Assembly (NCBI RefSeq): GCF_009689585.1
Contig: NZ_AP018694.1
Location: 2,123,001-2,187,000, forward strand
Origin: Aquipluma nitroreducens
GTDB taxonomy: Bacteria > Bacteroidota > Bacteroidia > Bacteroidales > Prolixibacteraceae
Reading direction: 5' to 3'
DNA: 64,000 nt
The notes beneath the pieces are model-generated. The model had not been told where the DNA came from. It ran no database searches and was given only the letters and a program-made list of their open reading frames with translations. Shown here one piece after another: positions 4,277-51,484 of the stretch. Within the stretch, counting starts at the first letter, position 1, and each line of letters starts with the position of its first letter. The position numbers and the translations under genes are program-made.

Positions 4277-6547
4277 TCATTGGGCATCTACTACAGCAAT
4301 GGTTATCATGTTAACGATTTCTCGTACCGAACATTCGGTCGGCACCACATGTATCGGTTTTTTCATGCCCATCAGAATTGGGCCGATGGCTTCCGCCCCA
4401 CCAATTTCCTGTATCAGTTTATAAGCGATATTGCCTGAGGTCAGATTTGGAAAAATGATTGTATTCACATCCCGGTTTTCCAGGCTGGTAAATGGAAATT
4501 TTTGACTTCGCAGCTCTTTATTGAGTGCAAAATTCATCTGAACTTCGCCGTCTACAATTAGTTCAGGATGATTCTTGTGAAGATAATCAATCGTTTGCCT
4601 TACCCTATCCAAGGCTTTGGTATGTTCCGACGATTTAACCGAACCAAAGTTTGAGTAGGATACCATCGCGATAATAGGTTCAATATTGAACTTCCGGACT
4701 TCATCAGCAGTCAACAAGGTTGTTTCAACAAGCGTTTGAACATCGGGGTCAAGGTTAACAGAGGTATCGGCAAAGAAAAGTGGCCCTTTCTTTGTCATCA
4801 CGATATACATACTGGAAATATGGTTCAGGTTTGGCTTTGGCCCGATTAATCTCAAGGCTGGGCCCATTACATCACCATAATGGCTTGTAACCCCCGAAAT
4901 CATGGCATCGGCCATTCCAGTATCGACCATCATAATACCAAAATAATTGCGATTGAACGTTAATTCATTCGCTTCTTCAAGGGTAATTCCTTTACGTTGA
5001 CGTTTCTGCCAGATTAAACCAGCAAAGGAATTCCTGGTTCCATCGCTTTCTTTCGCATGTGGATCGATAATTGAAATGTCATTTAAATCGAACTGATTTT
5101 GGGAGATCAGTTGTTTGATTTCTTCCACATTCCCCAACAATACCGGGACGGCAATGCCATCGTGCTGTACTTCGTTGGCAGCCCGGAGAACCTTCAGGTT
5201 ATTCCCCTCGGCAAATACTATTTTCTTCGGATTTTGTTTGGCCCTGACGACAAGACCATGCAACAACTGGTTATCTAAGCCCATTCGTTGACTCAGTTCA
5301 AGTTTATACTGATCCCAGTCTTCGATTGGCTTGCGTGCCACTCCGCTGTCCATCGCTGCCTGGGCAACTGCAGGAGCAACAGTATAAATAAGTCTCGGAT
5401 CGAGCGGCTTTGGGATAATATATTCCCGGCCAAAGATCAGGTTCGTCGCATTGTACGCTTTGCTTACACTTTCAGGAACTGCTTCTTTGGCGAGCCGGGC
5501 GAGGGCATAAACAGCGGCCAGTTTCATTTCTTCATTGATACAGGTTGCCCGGACATCAAGCGCTCCCCTAAATATATAAGGAAACCCAAGCACATTGTTT
5601 ACCTGATTCGGAAAATCGGAACGCCCGGTTGCCATAATCAAATCAGTACGCACCGACATGGCTTCGTCATAAGGTATTTCAGGATCAGGGTTGGCCATGG
5701 CAAAAATGACCGGGTTTTTGGCCATCGACTTCACCATTTCTTTCGAAACTAAGTTAGCTTGCGATAAACCCAGGAATATATCGGATTCAGCTATTGCTTC
5801 CGCAAGGGTTCGAACATTCCTATGGGTAACAAATGAAGCTTTATATTTATTCAAATCATTTCGGTCAGCCCGTATTGCCCCTTTCGAATCGAGCATAATC
5901 ATGTTTTCTTTCTTTGCGCCAAGCGAAATGATTAAATTAGCACATGCAATAGCGGCCGCTCCGGCTCCGCTAATTACAATTTTGGCTTCGTCAAGCTTCT
6001 TTCCCGATAATTCAAGCGCATTGATTATTCCTGCGGAACAAATAATAGCAGTTCCATGCTGATCGTCGTGCATCAGCGGAATCTGGACTTCACGTTTGAG
6101 CCTTTCTTCCACTTCAAAGCACTCAGGAGCTTTAAAATCTTCCAGATTAATTCCGCCAAAAGTGACAGCGATATTTTTTACTGTTTCGACAATTGCATCC
6201 ACATTCTTGTTGTCAATTTCAATGTCGAAAACATCAATGTCGGCAAATATTTTAAACAGGAAGCCTTTGCCCTCCATGACCGGTTTGCCTGCACCAGCGC
6301 CTATATCGCCCAATCCGAGCACAGCTGTTCCATTCGAAATAACAGCAACCAAGTTTCCTTTTGAAGTGTATTTGTAGATATCATCAAAATTCTTTTCTAT
6401 TTCCAGACAAGGATGTGCCACTCCGGGAGAATAGGCCAATGAAAGATCTCGTTGGGTACTGTGCGGCTTGGTAGTTGCCACTTCGAGTTTTCCGGGACGT
6501 CCTTCAGCATGATACCTCAGAGCGTCTTCTTTGGTGATTTTTGCCAT
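4277..6547 (-). CDS. maeB: NADP-dependent malic enzyme with phosphotransacetylase-like C-terminus
   Basis: Oxidatively decarboxylates malate to pyruvate with NAD(P)+, linking the TCA cycle to gluconeogenesis and NADPH supply in the cytoplasm. The 756 residues have the MaeB arrangement. The malic enzyme N-terminal domain carries YSPGVAHPC and [15 protein letters not shown], then comes [15 protein letters not shown] and an NAD-binding Rossmann segment ([13 protein letters not shown], about residue 195). The C-terminal phosphotransacetylase-like domain starts around residue 430 ([20 protein letters not shown]). In this class the second domain is regulatory (acetyl-CoA sensing) rather than catalytic. 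The length matches the family (about 750-770). No operon partner: the next gene upstream is separated by a hairpin at 6669-6697. Confidence 0.95.
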
Positions 6548-47711: not shown

Positions 47712-47719
47712 TACTTTTG
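47712..47719 (+). promoter_or_regulatory. -7 promoter element of the MgtE-like/Nramp unit
   Basis: TACTTTTG, a full TAnnTTTG match, 26 nt before the leader ORF at 47746. The same placement is seen before corA (50433). Between the preceding terminator and here (47584-47711) nothing else is seen. Confidence 0.65.
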
Positions 47720-47745
47720 CCGCGCAAACCAATATCAATTTTAAA

Positions 47746-47790
47746 ATGGACGAAGGGCCTGCGAGTATATTATTTATAAACCTGATATAG
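47746..47790 (+). CDS. 14-codon leader peptide of the MgtE-like/Nramp unit
   Basis: ATG at 47746, stop TAG at 47788. The peptide is MDEGPASILFINLI. The start and context AAAATGGACGA are identical to those of the leader ORF upstream of corA, and the length is the same. The acidic and proline residues at positions 2-5 resemble leader peptides that destabilise the ribosome at low Mg2+ (the enterobacterial mgtL principle); that role here is inference. Too short to prove by sequence alone. Confidence 0.55.
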   Translation: MDEGPASILFINLI

Positions 47791-47849
47791 CAGGAAAGCC
47801 AATCGTTTGTTTGAGCTCCTCCTGTTGTGTTACAAAAAAGGAGGTGCAT
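47791..47849 (+). promoter_or_regulatory. Two mutually exclusive leader hairpins controlling the ribosome binding site
   Basis: Hairpin A: GCTCCTCCT (47815-47823) pairs with AGGAGGTGC (47839-47847), 8 pairs and one T-T mismatch, hiding GGAGG at 47840-47844, which sits 5 nt before the ATG. Hairpin B: CAGGA (47791-47795) pairs with TCCTG (47820-47824), extended by AGC/GCT. B uses bases of A, so only one can form. The 5' arm of B begins right after the leader stop codon, where a terminating ribosome would cover it. Pairings were found by eye. Confidence 0.55.
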
Positions 47850-49118
47850 ATGACTACTATCACCACGTTTTATTTAAGCCGGATTGTCGGGATAAAAGCA
47901 TACGATTCCAATGGTAAATACATTGGAATTGTAAAGGATTTGTTGGTTGAATCCGATTCAGCAACCTTTTCGACACGACATCCTTCTGTTACCGGCATCA
48001 AGATAAAAAGGAATAATAAACTGTTTTTCTTTTCCTTTCAGCAATTCCAGGTTGAAAAACTTAATGGCGATATTAAAGTTATTGCCTCTCAGCCAACAGA
48101 GCTATCTGAAGATAGAATTTCAAATGACTTATCGCTGGTTGAATCAGTTCTTGACAAACAGATTGTTGATTTAAACGGGCGTAAACTGGTACGCGTAAAT
48201 GATGTACGGTTAGTTTCACTTGTTAACGGAACTTTCGCGGTGGCAGTGGATATCGGTACTGAAGGGTTGTTAAGAAGGATTGGAATTGCAAAACCGTTGA
48301 AGGCCGGTCTATCATTGGTTGGGTCGAGTATTCCAGGTAAGTTCATCAACTGGGAGGATTTTGAGGCGATTGACTTCTCCAATTCGAACATTAAACTTTC
48401 AAAGACATATAAAAAACTACAGACACTGCATCCGTCAGATTTAGCCGACATTATTGAAGAATTAGGCAAAAAGGCAAGTGCTGAAGTCTTTTCCTCGCTC
48501 AATGATGAGCAGGCCGCCGATGTAATGGAAGAACTTGAGCCTGAAACCCAGGTTCATATTATCGAAAGCCTTTCCATCGAAAAAGCGGCTGACGTACTGG
48601 ATAAAATGCCTGCCGACGAGGTTGCAGATATCTTTGATAGTCTGGAAGACGAAAAAATCGAGCTTTTGTTGAACGAGATGGAGAAAGAAACTTCCCAGGA
48701 GGTTCGGGAATTGCTTGTGTACCCCGATCATACAGTTGGAAGTATCATGTCGTATGAATTCATGTCATTCAACCCGAATATGACCATTGAGGAAGTTTTG
48801 GAAGAACTCCGTAGAACGAGACCCGAATCTGAAACTTTATATAACCTCTTTGTTACCGATGAAAATGAAATTCTGCTTGCAACATTCTCCATCCGCGATG
48901 TTGTAATCTCAGCTCCTGACACCAGAATAAGTGAAATTATGCGACCGTCACCCGTCCATCTGGTTGACTATCAAAAGATCAATGAAGTTGCTGAAATTGT
49001 TTCAAAATATAACCTTCTGGCCATTCCGGTAGTTGACGACCAAAACGTTTTAAAAGGAATGGTTGTTATCGATGATATTATCGAAGACTTAATCCGCAAA
49101 CGTCGAACAAACAGATAA
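47850..49118 (+). CDS. MgtE N-domain/CBS protein without transport domain
   Basis: 422 residues from the ATG at 47850 (GGAGG 5 nt upstream); a TTG extension to 47811 is unlikely. PRC-barrel-like N-terminal part (about 5-75: SRIVGIKAYDSNGKYIGIVK), then an MgtE N-domain of superhelical repeats (LHPSDLADIIEELGKKASAE, NDEQAADVMEELEPETQ, EKAADVLDKMPADEVADIFD), then a CBS pair (about 295-415: VGSIMSYEFMSFNPNMTIEE; ISEIMRPSPVHLVDYQ). This is the cytosolic Mg2+-sensing half of MgtE without the membrane half. It lies 12 bases before the Nramp-type gene, suggesting it gates that transporter. Confidence 0.9.
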   Translation: MTTITTFYLSRIVGIKAYDSNGKYIGIVKDLLVESDSATFSTRHPSVTGIKIKRNNKLFFFSFQQFQVEKLNGDIKVIASQPTELSEDRISNDLSLVESVLDKQIVDLNGRKLVRVNDVRLVSLVNGTFAVAVDIGTEGLLRRIGIAKPLKAGLSLVGSSIPGKFINWEDFEAIDFSNSNIKLSKTYKKLQTLHPSDLADIIEELGKKASAEVFSSLNDEQAADVMEELEPETQVHIIESLSIEKAADVLDKMPADEVADIFDSLEDEKIELLLNEMEKETSQEVRELLVYPDHTVGSIMSYEFMSFNPNMTIEEVLEELRRTRPESETLYNLFVTDENEILLATFSIRDVVISAPDTRISEIMRPSPVHLVDYQKINEVAEIVSKYNLLAIPVVDDQNVLKGMVVIDDIIEDLIRKRRTNR

Positions 49119-49130
49119 GTATAATCGGTC

Positions 49131-50372
49131 ATGTTCAAAAATAGAAAATCACTTTTCAAAAAGATAGCTATTTTCCTGGCTATTCTTGGTCCGGGCATTA
49201 TTACCGGAAGCGTTGATAATGATGCGGGTGGAATTACAACATACTCCGTTGCAGGCGCAGTTTACGGCTATAACCTGATCTGGACACTCATCCCTTCGTT
49301 CATCGTTCTGGTTGTTATTCAGGAAATGAATGCCCGAATGGGTATTGTTACCGGTAAAGGACTTGCCGACCTGATACGTGAAAATGCCGGGGTGAAAATT
49401 ACATTTTTCATCTTTATCGGATTACTTGTTGCCGATATTGGAAATACGACCACCGAATTTGCCGGGGTTGCCGGAAGTATGGAGGTGTTTGGTGTGAGTA
49501 AATACATATCTGTGCCCATAATCGGTGCATTGATCTGGCTCCTGGTAGTAAAGGGAACATATAAAATTGCCGAACGAATATTCCTGCTTTTCAGTGTTTC
49601 ATTGCTAATGTATGTAGTTTCGGCGCTGATGGGCAAACCGCATTGGGGCGAAATAGGCCATTCGATCATTCATCCACAATTGCCGATAAACGCAAGTAGT
49701 ATTGCAATGATTATCGGAATTATAGGAACCACCATTGCGCCATGGATGCAATTCTACATGCAATCTTCAGTAATAGAAAAAGGGTTGGACATGAAGCAAT
49801 ATAAATATTCGCTGATCGACATTGTCGTTGGCTGTGTTGCTACAGTAGCAGTAGCTTTTTTCATCATGGTTGCCTGTGCCTCCACATTGCATGTTAACGG
49901 CATTCAGATTAACGAAGCTAAAGATGCTGCCTTAGCGTTAGGACCATTAGCCGGAGAATTGGCATCACAAGTATTTGCTTTCGGACTATTTATTGCATCC
50001 ATATTTTCAGCAACCATTTTACCATTAGCAACTGCATTCTATGTATGCGAAGCTTTCGGATTCGAGGCTGGAATTGATAAAAAATGGGATGATGCCAGAG
50101 AGTTTTACATTCTTTATACCGGGATTCTGATTCTTTCGGCCGCAATCATTTTATTGCCTAATGCCCCCTTAATCCTGATTTCTCTATGGACACAGGTAAT
50201 TAACGGAATGCTTTTACCGGTTGTACTGGTGTGTATGATCTTGCTTGTTAACAACAAAAAAATAATGGGACAGTATGTAAATAAGCCCATCAACAACATC
50301 ATTGGCTGGGGAGCTGTTATTATTCTTATTGGACTTTCAGTGACACTTCTTTTAATGCCGCTATTTTCGTAG
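49131..50372 (+). CDS. Nramp-family transporter, probable Mg2+ type (NRMT-like)
   Basis: 413 residues with about 11 membrane helices of the SLC11 fold. In Mn/Fe Nramps helix 1 has DPGN and helix 6 has MPH. Here helix 1 reads SVDNDAGGITTYS and helix 6 reads TIAPWMQFYMQ, so the metal-selecting Met is Ala and the His is Trp. These changes fit the Nramp-related Mg2+ transporter branch as I recall it. The partner gene carries MgtE sensor domains and the next unit is corA, which supports Mg2+ uptake. Confidence 0.85.
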   Translation: MFKNRKSLFKKIAIFLAILGPGIITGSVDNDAGGITTYSVAGAVYGYNLIWTLIPSFIVLVVIQEMNARMGIVTGKGLADLIRENAGVKITFFIFIGLLVADIGNTTTEFAGVAGSMEVFGVSKYISVPIIGALIWLLVVKGTYKIAERIFLLFSVSLLMYVVSALMGKPHWGEIGHSIIHPQLPINASSIAMIIGIIGTTIAPWMQFYMQSSVIEKGLDMKQYKYSLIDIVVGCVATVAVAFFIMVACASTLHVNGIQINEAKDAALALGPLAGELASQVFAFGLFIASIFSATILPLATAFYVCEAFGFEAGIDKKWDDAREFYILYTGILILSAAIILLPNAPLILISLWTQVINGMLLPVVLVCMILLVNNKKIMGQYVNKPINNIIGWGAVIILIGLSVTLLLMPLFS

Positions 50373-50432
50373 CTCTTAAATTGAAGAATTAATTTTAGTT
50401 TTTAATTCATCCGCGAATTCCAGTCAAATAGT

Positions 50433-50440
50433 TACCTTTG
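50433..50440 (+). promoter_or_regulatory. -7 promoter element of corA
   Basis: TACCTTTG, a full TAnnTTTG match, 24 nt before the leader ORF at 50465. The following bases resemble those downstream of the promoter at 47712. Confidence 0.65.
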
Positions 50441-50464
50441 CACCGAAATCATTATAAATCCAAA

Positions 50465-50509
50465 ATGGACGATTATCATTCGACACAGTTAAAGTTATTA
50501 ATCCGGTAG
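50465..50509 (+). CDS. 14-codon leader peptide of corA
   Basis: ATG at 50465, stop TAG at 50507. The peptide is MDDYHSTQLKLLIR, the same length as the leader before the MgtE-like gene, sharing the start AAAATGGACGA. It begins with two acidic residues. See the paired leader at 47746. Confidence 0.55.
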   Translation: MDDYHSTQLKLLIR

Positions 50510-50510
50510 T

Positions 50511-50557
50511 CAGAGCCCGTCATAGTCTCTGGTTGTCGACAAAACGGAGAAACTATG
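50511..50557 (+). promoter_or_regulatory. Two mutually exclusive leader hairpins controlling the corA start
   Basis: Hairpin A: CATAGTCTCTG (50521-50531) pairs with CGGAG (50545-50549) and ACTATG (50552-50557) around a 2-nt bulge, covering both the GGAG ribosome binding site and the corA ATG at 50555. Hairpin B: CAGAG (50511-50515) pairs with CTCTG (50527-50531), using bases of A. The 5' arm of B starts one base after the leader stop. Same logic as at 47791-47849. An outer TCGACA/TGTCGA pairing (50480-50485, 50534-50539) is also possible. Confidence 0.55.
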
Positions 50558-51484
50558 ATTACTTATTGGGAAACCGGTACTTCCTTTACACGTTTGAACA
50601 CATTTCAGCCAAACTGCTGGATCAACTCACAGGAACTTACCAACGAAGAAGTAGAAGAATTAATCAACACGTACGATGTACCCCGTGATTTTATCATGGA
50701 CGTTTTAGATATCGATGAGCGTTCGCGTATTGAGGTTGATGAAGATAAAGTATTGATCATTCTGCGCGTACCGCTTAACAATCAAAACAATGGTATTCCT
50801 TTCATTACGGTTCCACTTGGAATTATTGTCTCAGGTAATCAGGTCATTACCATTTGCTCACGACGAACCGAAATAATTCCGTCTTTAATCAAGCAAGTCA
50901 ACGAAAACAAAATAACGATCACAAATCAGTTCGATTATGTACTTCGCATATTCCTGATTTCAGCGGTTTGGTTTCTTCAGTTCCTGAAAGAAATAAACGT
51001 GCAAACAGCACTGATTGAAAAGGATCTGGAGAATGCAACCAAGAATAAGGAATTGCATCGACTGCTTCACATGGAAAAGTGTCTTGTGTTCTTCATTACA
51101 TCGCTGAAAACAAATGAAATGGTTCTTGCGAAAATGCGTAATGGCCGCAATATGCAGGGCATCGAACACGATGAAGACCTGATGGAAGATGTAATTATTG
51201 AAACAAAACAGGCTCTTGAAATGGCCAATGTTTACAGCGATATTCAGAGTGGAATGATGGATGCCTTTGCTTCAATCATCTCGAATAATTTGAATGTCAT
51301 CATGAAGCAACTTACTTCGGTAACCATTATCCTGATGATACCTACTTTAGTCGCCAGTTTATATGGAATGAATGTACCCAACAACTTTGAGAATTCTCAT
51401 TACGCGTTTATTTTTGTAATTGCCATTTCAATTACCTTATCACTGTTTGGGGTGCTCCTCTTTAAGTGGAAAAACTGGTTCTGA
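50555..51484 (+). CDS. corA: CorA-family magnesium/cobalt transporter
   Basis: 309 residues. A large cytosolic N-terminal domain (about 1-245), then two C-terminal membrane helices with the YGMN signature between them (TLVASLYGMNVPNNFE) that forms the pore mouth; the last helix is FIFVIAISITLSLFGVLLF. A channel for Mg2+ (also Co2+) influx. Its own leader peptide and promoter precede it. The stop abuts that of the convergent DUF6427 gene with no gap. Confidence 0.94.
   Translation: MITYWETGTSFTRLNTFQPNCWINSQELTNEEVEELINTYDVPRDFIMDVLDIDERSRIEVDEDKVLIILRVPLNNQNNGIPFITVPLGIIVSGNQVITICSRRTEIIPSLIKQVNENKITITNQFDYVLRIFLISAVWFLQFLKEINVQTALIEKDLENATKNKELHRLLHMEKCLVFFITSLKTNEMVLAKMRNGRNMQGIEHDEDLMEDVIIETKQALEMANVYSDIQSGMMDAFASIISNNLNVIMKQLTSVTIILMIPTLVASLYGMNVPNNFENSHYAFIFVIAISITLSLFGVLLFKWKNWF

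Follow-up and report, generated by a model that had tools for sequence, protein, structure and literature searches.

What do the short open reading frames (ORFs) in front of two neighbouring Mg2+ uptake units of Aquipluma nitroreducens do? The window analysed here, a stretch of 64,000 nucleotides (nt) of contig NZ_AP018694.1, contains one unit made up of an MgtE_N/CBS gene and nrmT (unit 1) and a second made up of corA, and each of them is headed by a leader ORF followed by two hairpins that compete for the same RNA. We consider it likely that each unit carries a Mg2+ switch read by the ribosome and acting on translation, in which early drop-off of the ribosome from the leader at low Mg2+ would turn the transporter on.

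Both units begin with a common module, as a sequence-only reading of this DNA had proposed: a TAnnTTTG element, which we take to be the -7 promoter motif of Bacteroidota, followed after about 25 nt by a leader that opens with ATG GAC GA (26 nt from the element in unit 1 and 24 nt in corA). This arrangement can be read directly in the DNA (Table 1), and both window leaders contain AAAATGGACGA. Among the 114 distinct leaders that we assembled (see below), TTTG lies no more than 60 nt upstream in 109, at a median of 26 nt before the leader ATG, and it precedes all 17 of the listed corA leaders of the same-genus type. The distance from the leader stop to the main start has a median of 51 nt.

Folding of the DNA downstream of each leader confirmed two mutually exclusive hairpins, A and B, that draw on one middle arm directed against the ribosome-binding site (the anti-RBS arm): its partner in B is the region around the leader stop, and in A the main Shine-Dalgarno sequence and start. 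As had been claimed, A masks the main Shine-Dalgarno sequence and, at corA, the ATG; in unit 1 it likewise extends over the start codon. The same reading had placed the beginning of B 0-1 base after the leader stop, a position that does not hold in general, as the 5' arm of B often includes the stop codon. When folded in isolation (47781-47830), the B hairpin of unit 1 reaches -17.7 kcal/mol (z -4.5); its counterpart at the window corA does not stand out in isolation (z -0.4), and there the support for B is comparative. Hairpin A of corA, folded without the upstream arm, has a z of -2.7.

Table 1. Positions in the window of the promoter elements, leaders, competing hairpins and genes of the two Mg2+ units.
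Feature	Position	Strand	Details
Bacteroidota-type -7 element TAnnTTTG (TACTTTTG), MgtE_N/CBS-nrmT unit	47712..47719	+	read directly
Leader ORF 1, MDEGPASILFINLI, 14 codons	47746..47790	+	ATG 47746; stop TAG 47788-47790; main ATG 47850
Hairpin B, unit 1	47782..47833	+	47782-47805 with 47809-47833; 5' arm holds leader stop; duplex -21.4 kcal/mol
Hairpin A, unit 1	47804..47858	+	47804-47824 with 47838-47858; masks GGAGG 47840-47844 and start codon; duplex -15.3 kcal/mol
MgtE_N + CBS (+ PRC-barrel) protein	47850..49118	+	Pfam MgtE_N E 7.5e-26, CBS 4.2e-16, PRC 3.2e-5
nrmT, Nramp-related magnesium transporter	49131..50372	+	Pfam Nramp E 4e-96
-7 element TAnnTTTG (TACCTTTG) of corA	50433..50440	+	read directly
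Leader ORF 2, MDDYHSTQLKLLIR, 14 codons	50465..50509	+	ATG 50465; stop TAG 50507-50509; corA ATG 50555
Hairpin B, corA	50503..50539	+	50503-50517 with 50524-50539; 5' arm holds leader stop; duplex -11.1 kcal/mol
Hairpin A, corA	50512..50565	+	50512-50532 with 50544-50565; masks GGAG 50546-50549 and ATG; duplex -15.6 kcal/mol
corA, Mg2+ transporter, 309 amino acids	50555..51484	+	Pfam CorA E 9.3e-49

The genes behind the leaders are Mg2+ genes, in agreement with the sequence-only reading and as indicated by matches to Pfam and to solved structures. The MgtE_N/CBS protein finds its best solved match in the MgtE structure 2yvx (residues 46-275, E 4.5e-35), and the MgtE membrane domain is absent from its Pfam matches. 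The nrmT product is closest to the solved chain 7qia (E 3.7e-109, compared with 1.2e-25 for the best MntH), which is EleNRMT, described as an uncoupled Mg2+ transporter (PMC8806188). It thus stands nearer to NRMT than to MntH and has an MgtE_N/CBS gene adjacent to it, as expected of the NRMT type; in other phyla, NrmT genes are described that lie beside a separate homologue of the MgtE N-terminal domain and are under M-box control (PMC4072509). Because the Nramp protein is EleNRMT-like and the pairing of NrmT with MgtE-N is known elsewhere, both the MgtE_N/CBS-nrmT unit and the corA unit are Mg2+ units. The nearest named relative of the window CorA is 99% identical and belongs to a metagenome-assembled genome (MAG) of the Prolixibacteraceae, the family of the window's genome.

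The leader is kept before Mg2+ genes in many relatives, and its absence there had been named in advance as what would count against the idea. Presence was counted from the transporter protein and not from the leader. The total comes to 177 leaders (147 before corA, 29 before MgtE_N/CBS-nrmT and 1 before a full-length mgtE), made up of 114 distinct leaders, in which rows of identical sequence are counted once, a set of 57 from the wider order, 5 more and 1 more; the last of these, L298, has a leader and stands outside the 57. In the family, a CorA of this kind occurs in 74 of 140 genomes, and an acidic leader precedes 68 of the 71 corA genes with readable upstream DNA (66/69 plus L071 of G007 and L141 of G067); the leaderless ones are G013/L015, G077/L195 and G118/L200. 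Such a CorA is present in 87 of the 393 genomes of the order, and outside the family 61 of 82 examinable genes carry a leader (58/79 plus 3/3), leaving 21 leaderless, among which L363 is counted although its start is uncertain. Genes whose start or upstream DNA was cut off or not fetched were excluded from these counts (G014, G117 and G123 in the family; G776, G777 and G849 in the order). The rule by which leaders were recognised accepted 57 of 79 real upstream regions in the order set, compared with 88 of 7900 shuffled ones (1.1%); the least certain leaders of that set are L339, L353 and L356, which lie 92-96 nt from the main start. From a 117-row table L108, L109 and the second of the L100 rows were rejected, as were L162 and L163.

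In a sample of the phylum, 65 of 395 genomes have a CorA of this kind. All 15 corA genes of the genus g48, which we term Flavobacterium-like because two named Flavobacterium MAGs bear the same leader type, have MDDYY, MDDYD or MDDSQ leaders, and both corA copies of G540 are preceded by a leader. No leader was found before the corA genes examined in families f35 (13), f21 (7) and f24 (5), nor in G166, G288 and G516. The MgtE_N/CBS-nrmT units are consistent in this respect: an MDE, MDD or MEE leader stands before 8 of 8 in the same genus and before all 18 that have upstream DNA among 19 matching genomes in an 86-genome family sample, five of these leaders being MEEGSS. A full-length mgtE in G133 (L161) has the leader MDEDPCYSQLKY and a decoy/anti-Shine-Dalgarno/Shine-Dalgarno trio, which suggests that a third class of transporter has also acquired the switch.

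Several loci differ from this layout. At L015 (about 1425-1500) corA follows nrmT directly and lacks a leader, and the MgtE_N/CBS gene of the same genome (L050) keeps its own; the two units may have merged here behind a single leader. The corA of L195 (G077:C75), in a genome of 2.2 Mb, has lost its leader start and seems to retain hairpin-like sequence around the Shine-Dalgarno sequence, and may be a decaying switch. At L144 (G094:C92, 1700-3600) corA and an MgtE_N/CBS unit are divergent and have separate, different leaders, MDDHPAEIKNLN and MDDGPASTLIINLI.

What is conserved in the leader peptide is its N-terminus, which is kept across the 114 distinct leaders. Residue 2 is Asp in 110 leaders and Glu in 4, residue 3 is Asp or Glu in 111 and residue 5 is Pro in 75, counts that are inflated because the acidic start was used in part to recognise leaders, the protein-anchored fractions above being fairer. 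Mean entropy over codons 2-6 is 0.64 and 0.75 bits at the first and second bases and 1.19 at the third, as compared with 1.58, 1.49 and 1.57 over codons 7-11. After M-[DE]-[DE] the residues vary (GP, DP, YH, YY, SNPR, GSS), and neither the C-terminus nor the length is conserved. The exact length of 14 codons stressed in the sequence-only reading is true of both window leaders but coincidental, the range being 8-24 codons among the 114 distinct leaders (L153 is extended to 18) and reaching 30 in the order set; with 8-30 codons seen, length was rejected as a feature, and a stop-codon arrest peptide was likewise rejected, since the C-terminus varies. As in the acidic/proline Mg2+-sensor leader peptides, then, a short ORF stands upstream of a Mg2+ gene and its acidic/proline N-terminus is conserved.

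The competing hairpins are conserved as well. Leaving out L070, which has no room for B, 112 of 113 leaders have an A and a B that both reach -10 kcal/mol or lower and whose arms share 5 nt or more, as against 12.4% of shuffles; in the independent order set the figure is 52 of 57, as against 13.5%. The two hairpins compete for at least 3 paired bases in 112/113 and 55/57 leaders, and in L037 the minimum-energy arms have 11 paired bases in common. A test of single helices against shuffles is weaker (A falls in the best 5% for 85 of 113 leaders and B for 87); the 3' arm of A lies over the start region in 113/113, the search having confined it there, and energy losses upon swapping arms are biased, as the arms were picked by native energy. 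The parts can be recognised by eye in distant leaders: in the Flavobacterium-like L096 the leader stop is followed by GCAG and then CTTTTGAAATTTCAAAATGCTGC, with ATTTTGAAATG at the main start, and in L161 the decoy CTGTAAGG lies 5 nt past the stop, with CCTTACAG serving as middle arm and TGTAAGGAGG as the real Shine-Dalgarno sequence.

A comparison of the hairpins in relatives, where a lack of covariation had been named as refuting the idea, found changes on both sides of base pairs for B in all four alignments and for A in two of the four (MAFFT alignments of four groups, built without structure). For B these double-sided changes affect 8 of 8 pairs in Prolixibacteraceae corA (38 cells compared with 14.0 in shuffles), 3 of 9 in MgtE_N/CBS (89.2% of cells paired, 24 sequences), 3 of 11 in the Flavobacterium-like group and 2 of 8 in same-genus corA (96.9% of cells paired, 12 distinct sequences); for A they affect 5 of 10 pairs in Prolixibacteraceae corA and 1 of 8 in MgtE_N/CBS (91.7% of cells paired). 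Hairpin A is bound to the Shine-Dalgarno and coding sequences. The leaders thus have the features of a translational attenuator: a hairpin that hides the ribosome-binding site (RBS), a second hairpin that shares bases with it and would be blocked by a leader ribosome, and covariation.

Modelling of the ribosome as a cover on the RNA indicated which state a finished leader should favour. We compared cover over the first 28 nt at most (early loss) with cover over the leader's final 18 nt and 9 nt past its stop (finishing), and took as output the energy that it costs to open the main start region. This cost rises from 5.9 to 10.4 kcal/mol, with the start closed further in 109 of 113 leaders (shuffles -0.3), and in the independent set from 6.4 to 10.8 kcal/mol, with a positive effect in 48 of 57 (shuffles -0.2); for unit 1 of the window the predicted switch is +5.0 kcal/mol. 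Geometry agrees with the model: the 5' (decoy) arm of B lies under the footprint of the stop ribosome in 170/170 leaders, at least half covered in 161/170, and relative to a ribosome with codon 4 in its P site the midpoint of this arm lies beyond the ribosome in 170/170 and its start in 157/170. Opening the start costs 6.8 kcal/mol in genes with a leader (n=57) and 3.3 in leaderless ones (n=20, a control that omits L298 and L363), a difference with p 3.5e-6, uncorrected for kinship.

These observations are consistent with the following mechanism. A ribosome would start the leader at an A-rich start that lacks a Shine-Dalgarno sequence, and would immediately make an N-terminus that is acidic and often contains proline, with GP, DP, YH, YY or similar residues after M-[DE]-[DE]. 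Intrinsic ribosome destabilisation is known from Escherichia coli. At low cytosolic Mg2+ the acidic nascent chain would destabilise the 70S ribosome, which would drop off within the first few codons; the stop region would then be bare, the anti-RBS arm would pair with the decoy (B), and the Shine-Dalgarno sequence and start would be free, with the transporter ON. At high Mg2+ ribosomes would reach the leader stop and cover the decoy, and the anti-RBS arm would pair with the real start (A), turning the transporter OFF; a leader that is not translated would leave the switch ON by default. Much of this had been put forward in the sequence-only reading, of which the competition between the hairpins and the predicted preference, under a stop ribosome, for the one that hides the main start have stood up, whereas we infer leader translation, early drop-off, its dependence on Mg2+ and an output at the level of protein.

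A number of results weigh against this account. The free RNA of the window corA still costs 9 kcal/mol to open, and its minimum-energy fold is A, not B; unit 1, when folded from after the leader stop, likewise adopts A. Because A is the favoured free fold (for both leaders without the stop region, and for corA even with it), the ON state in such a model must rest on the order of folding, with B formed first during transcription, and not on equilibrium. The predicted switch of the window corA is only +1.2 kcal/mol and reverses to -4.2 when the footprint is set at 12 nt. At 9 nt the effect fails to be positive in 4 of 113 leaders and 9 of 57, and a 12-nt footprint leaves 91 of 113 positive (49 of 57 in the independent set). 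Hairpin A shows double-sided changes in 0 of 10 pairs in the Flavobacterium-like group and 0 of 12 in same-genus corA (99.3% of cells paired); only 0-2 bases are common to the pairing of A and B in L148, L342 and L353; and the leader of L070, lacking a stop at the usual place, reads 24 codons into hairpin A. Proline is missing near the start of most YH and YY leaders and of all five that read MEEGSS, and to this may be added the recognition bias in the residue counts mentioned above. Finally, the leader pattern by itself is unspecific, with only 10 of 64 scan loci at a corA and 53 without a relative of CorA, MgtE or NrmT.

Those 64 loci derive from scans of the phylum (TTTG with an MDDY or MDEGP start, 390 genomes, giving 53 MDDY rows and 26 MDEGP rows), from a looser scan of the bacterium's own genome and from two further places; in the remaining one, L248, another part of the locus has a distant match to MgtE. 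Many of the 53 loci without a transporter open a short MDDY or MDEGP frame, and we take these 53 to be probably chance or coding matches. In the genome of A. nitroreducens the strict patterns matched only the two known leaders, and the looser pattern matched 8 places compared with 4 in the control, with only leader 1 at a Mg2+ gene; a second, longer CorA paralogue has no ATGGANGA in the 455 nt that precede its first in-frame ATG. Four Flavobacterium-like loci (L230, L232, L235 and L240) have in common a short frame of the form MDDYY-V/F-L..R.GI after TTTG, with no Mg2+ transporter adjoining; this frame is probably a conserved protein read out of frame. The locus L160 (G127:C67) has the MDEGP leader MDEGPCHRNKLILNHH together with a decoy GGAGGC and a Shine-Dalgarno sequence in front of what may be a broken or a different transporter gene.

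The same anatomy could serve other ends. The RNA switch might respond to another signal, such as transfer RNA (tRNA), the activity of EF-P or EttA or the general supply of ribosomes, with the Mg2+ genes controlled indirectly: ribosomes can also pause at Pro, Gly and acidic codons, the sequence reveals the anatomy and not the signal, and a paper on ribosome pausing and the ABC-F protein EttA often mentions mgtL and acidic residues (PMC11282234). Three classes of Mg2+ gene nevertheless share the leader while its residues after position 3 vary, and because GP, DP, YH, YY, SNPR and GSS all follow that position no single amino acid or codon fits; we regard a signal other than Mg2+ as unlikely. The presence of bL31 in the genome does not discriminate. 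Rather improbable, in our estimation, is the opposite polarity, with completion of the leader turning the main ORF on through re-initiation or the melting of A. The short distance from stop to start and the leader of L070 that runs into hairpin A would fit such coupling, but the stop ribosome is predicted to close the main start in the large majority of both sets (109/113 and 48/57), what lies beneath it is the decoy arm and not the 3' arm of A, and the arrangement would raise Mg2+ import when Mg2+ is high.

Two further arrangements of the RNA appear highly improbable to us. In one, A and B together would form an H-type pseudoknot as the off state, to be opened by the stop ribosome; the 5' arm of A lies partly inside the loop of B, and the three leaders with 0-2 common paired bases would permit it, but the 3 or more bases claimed by both hairpins in 112/113 and 55/57 leaders exclude full co-formation in most, and the pseudoknot predicts the wrong sign of the response to Mg2+. 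In the other, which we judge to have equally little chance, hairpin A would be a transcription terminator or compete with one. At L020 (the same locus as L073, in G023) a GCCTCC/GGAGGC hairpin A is followed by seven U before the ATG, and there A could double as a terminator; none of the other leaders in the sets of 114 and 57 has a run of at least five T ahead of its main start, however, and elsewhere A pairs with the Shine-Dalgarno sequence or ATG and extends into the coding sequence. A Mg2+ switch acting on translation through early drop-off thus remains the reading that we prefer.

Known Mg2+ leaders offer a measure of what is new in such a switch. Poor elongation of upstream ORFs with acidic and proline codons is reported to turn on Mg2+ transporters in the mgtL and mgtQ systems (PMC11552253, PMC8092293). 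The sequence-only reading had drawn its comparison with mgtL; the closest known system is instead mgtQ of the Salmonella mgtCBRU operon, an 8-codon ORF whose Asp2 and Glu5 destabilise ribosomes and whose alternative hairpins hide or free a transporter RBS (PMC8092293). An acidic ORF and alternative hairpins on the RBS of a Mg2+ transporter are common to mgtQ and the leaders described here, and ribosome abort on that ORF and action at the level of translation would be as well. They differ in that mgtQ lies inside an enterobacterial operon and has mgtB as its target, whereas the leaders here head their units and serve corA and MgtE_N/CBS-nrmT; mgtQ uses a four-arm logic and must be entered to break stem 1:2, whereas three arms (decoy, anti-RBS and RBS) account for the pairing here; and mutation of the mgtQ start codon lowers mgtB, whereas the leaders here should, if they are no longer initiated, allow higher expression. 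As with mgtL and corL, efficient translation of the upstream ORF would repress the Mg2+ transporter and poor elongation at low Mg2+ would induce it (PMC11552253), and corL further resembles the present leaders in its sign (ON by default when the leader is not translated) and in its target, corA. The output of mgtL and corL is Rho-dependent transcription termination, with the upstream ORF set in a three-way RNA junction (PMC11552253), whereas hairpin A would here hide the RBS directly. The three-arm decoy design and the phylum thus set the switch apart from both mgtQ and corL.

M-box RNAs control the same NrmT/MgtE-N gene pair in response to Mg2+, mostly in Clostridia and Deltaproteobacteria, but bind Mg2+ as RNA and mostly control a terminator, so that the leaders here differ in kind (PMC4072509). 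An Rfam riboswitch or M-box was rejected: the window has no match at the gathering threshold, and E-value searches of both leaders returned one mir-515 match far below the cut-off. At 20 further loci the Rfam matches were limited to tRNAs and a single Flavo-1 RNA located downstream of corA, with no Mg2+ RNA. The latter (RF01705) lies just downstream of the Flavobacterium corA of L069, at 4939-5083 on the minus strand; at L350 two tRNA genes of equal Rfam score (12-85 and 108-181) stand directly upstream of the corA leader MDDSNPRTCSSIHTSLGSK. The leader-peptide attenuators of Flavobacterium psychrophilum are also from Bacteroidota, but they belong to operons for amino-acid biosynthesis and act on transcription elongation (PMC9723704); the words "magnesium" and "corA" are absent from the main text of that paper. 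In keeping with the earlier statement that no such leader had been described in Bacteroidota, we found none in the open-access PMC literature, including passages of a flavobacterial and a Bacteroides transcriptome paper.

Taken more broadly, we lean, if not strongly, towards the view that a default-ON three-arm decoy switch of this kind is the main control of Mg2+ uptake in a large part of Bacteroidota, independent of mgtL and mgtQ, spread over at least three classes of transporter and the most widespread natural sensor based on nascent-chain destabilisation. If this is true, the sensing of Mg2+ through ribosome stability would not be confined to enterobacteria and would have evolved a second time, on a differently wired RNA, in a phylum that is common in gut, soil and water. 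It would supply a prediction for the control of corA and nrmT by Mg2+ in many genomes, and about 170 natural variants from which to learn which N-termini destabilise ribosomes. Bacteroidota mRNAs rarely rely on Shine-Dalgarno sequences, and a switch that hides and frees one would bear on how these bacteria regulate their translation starts.

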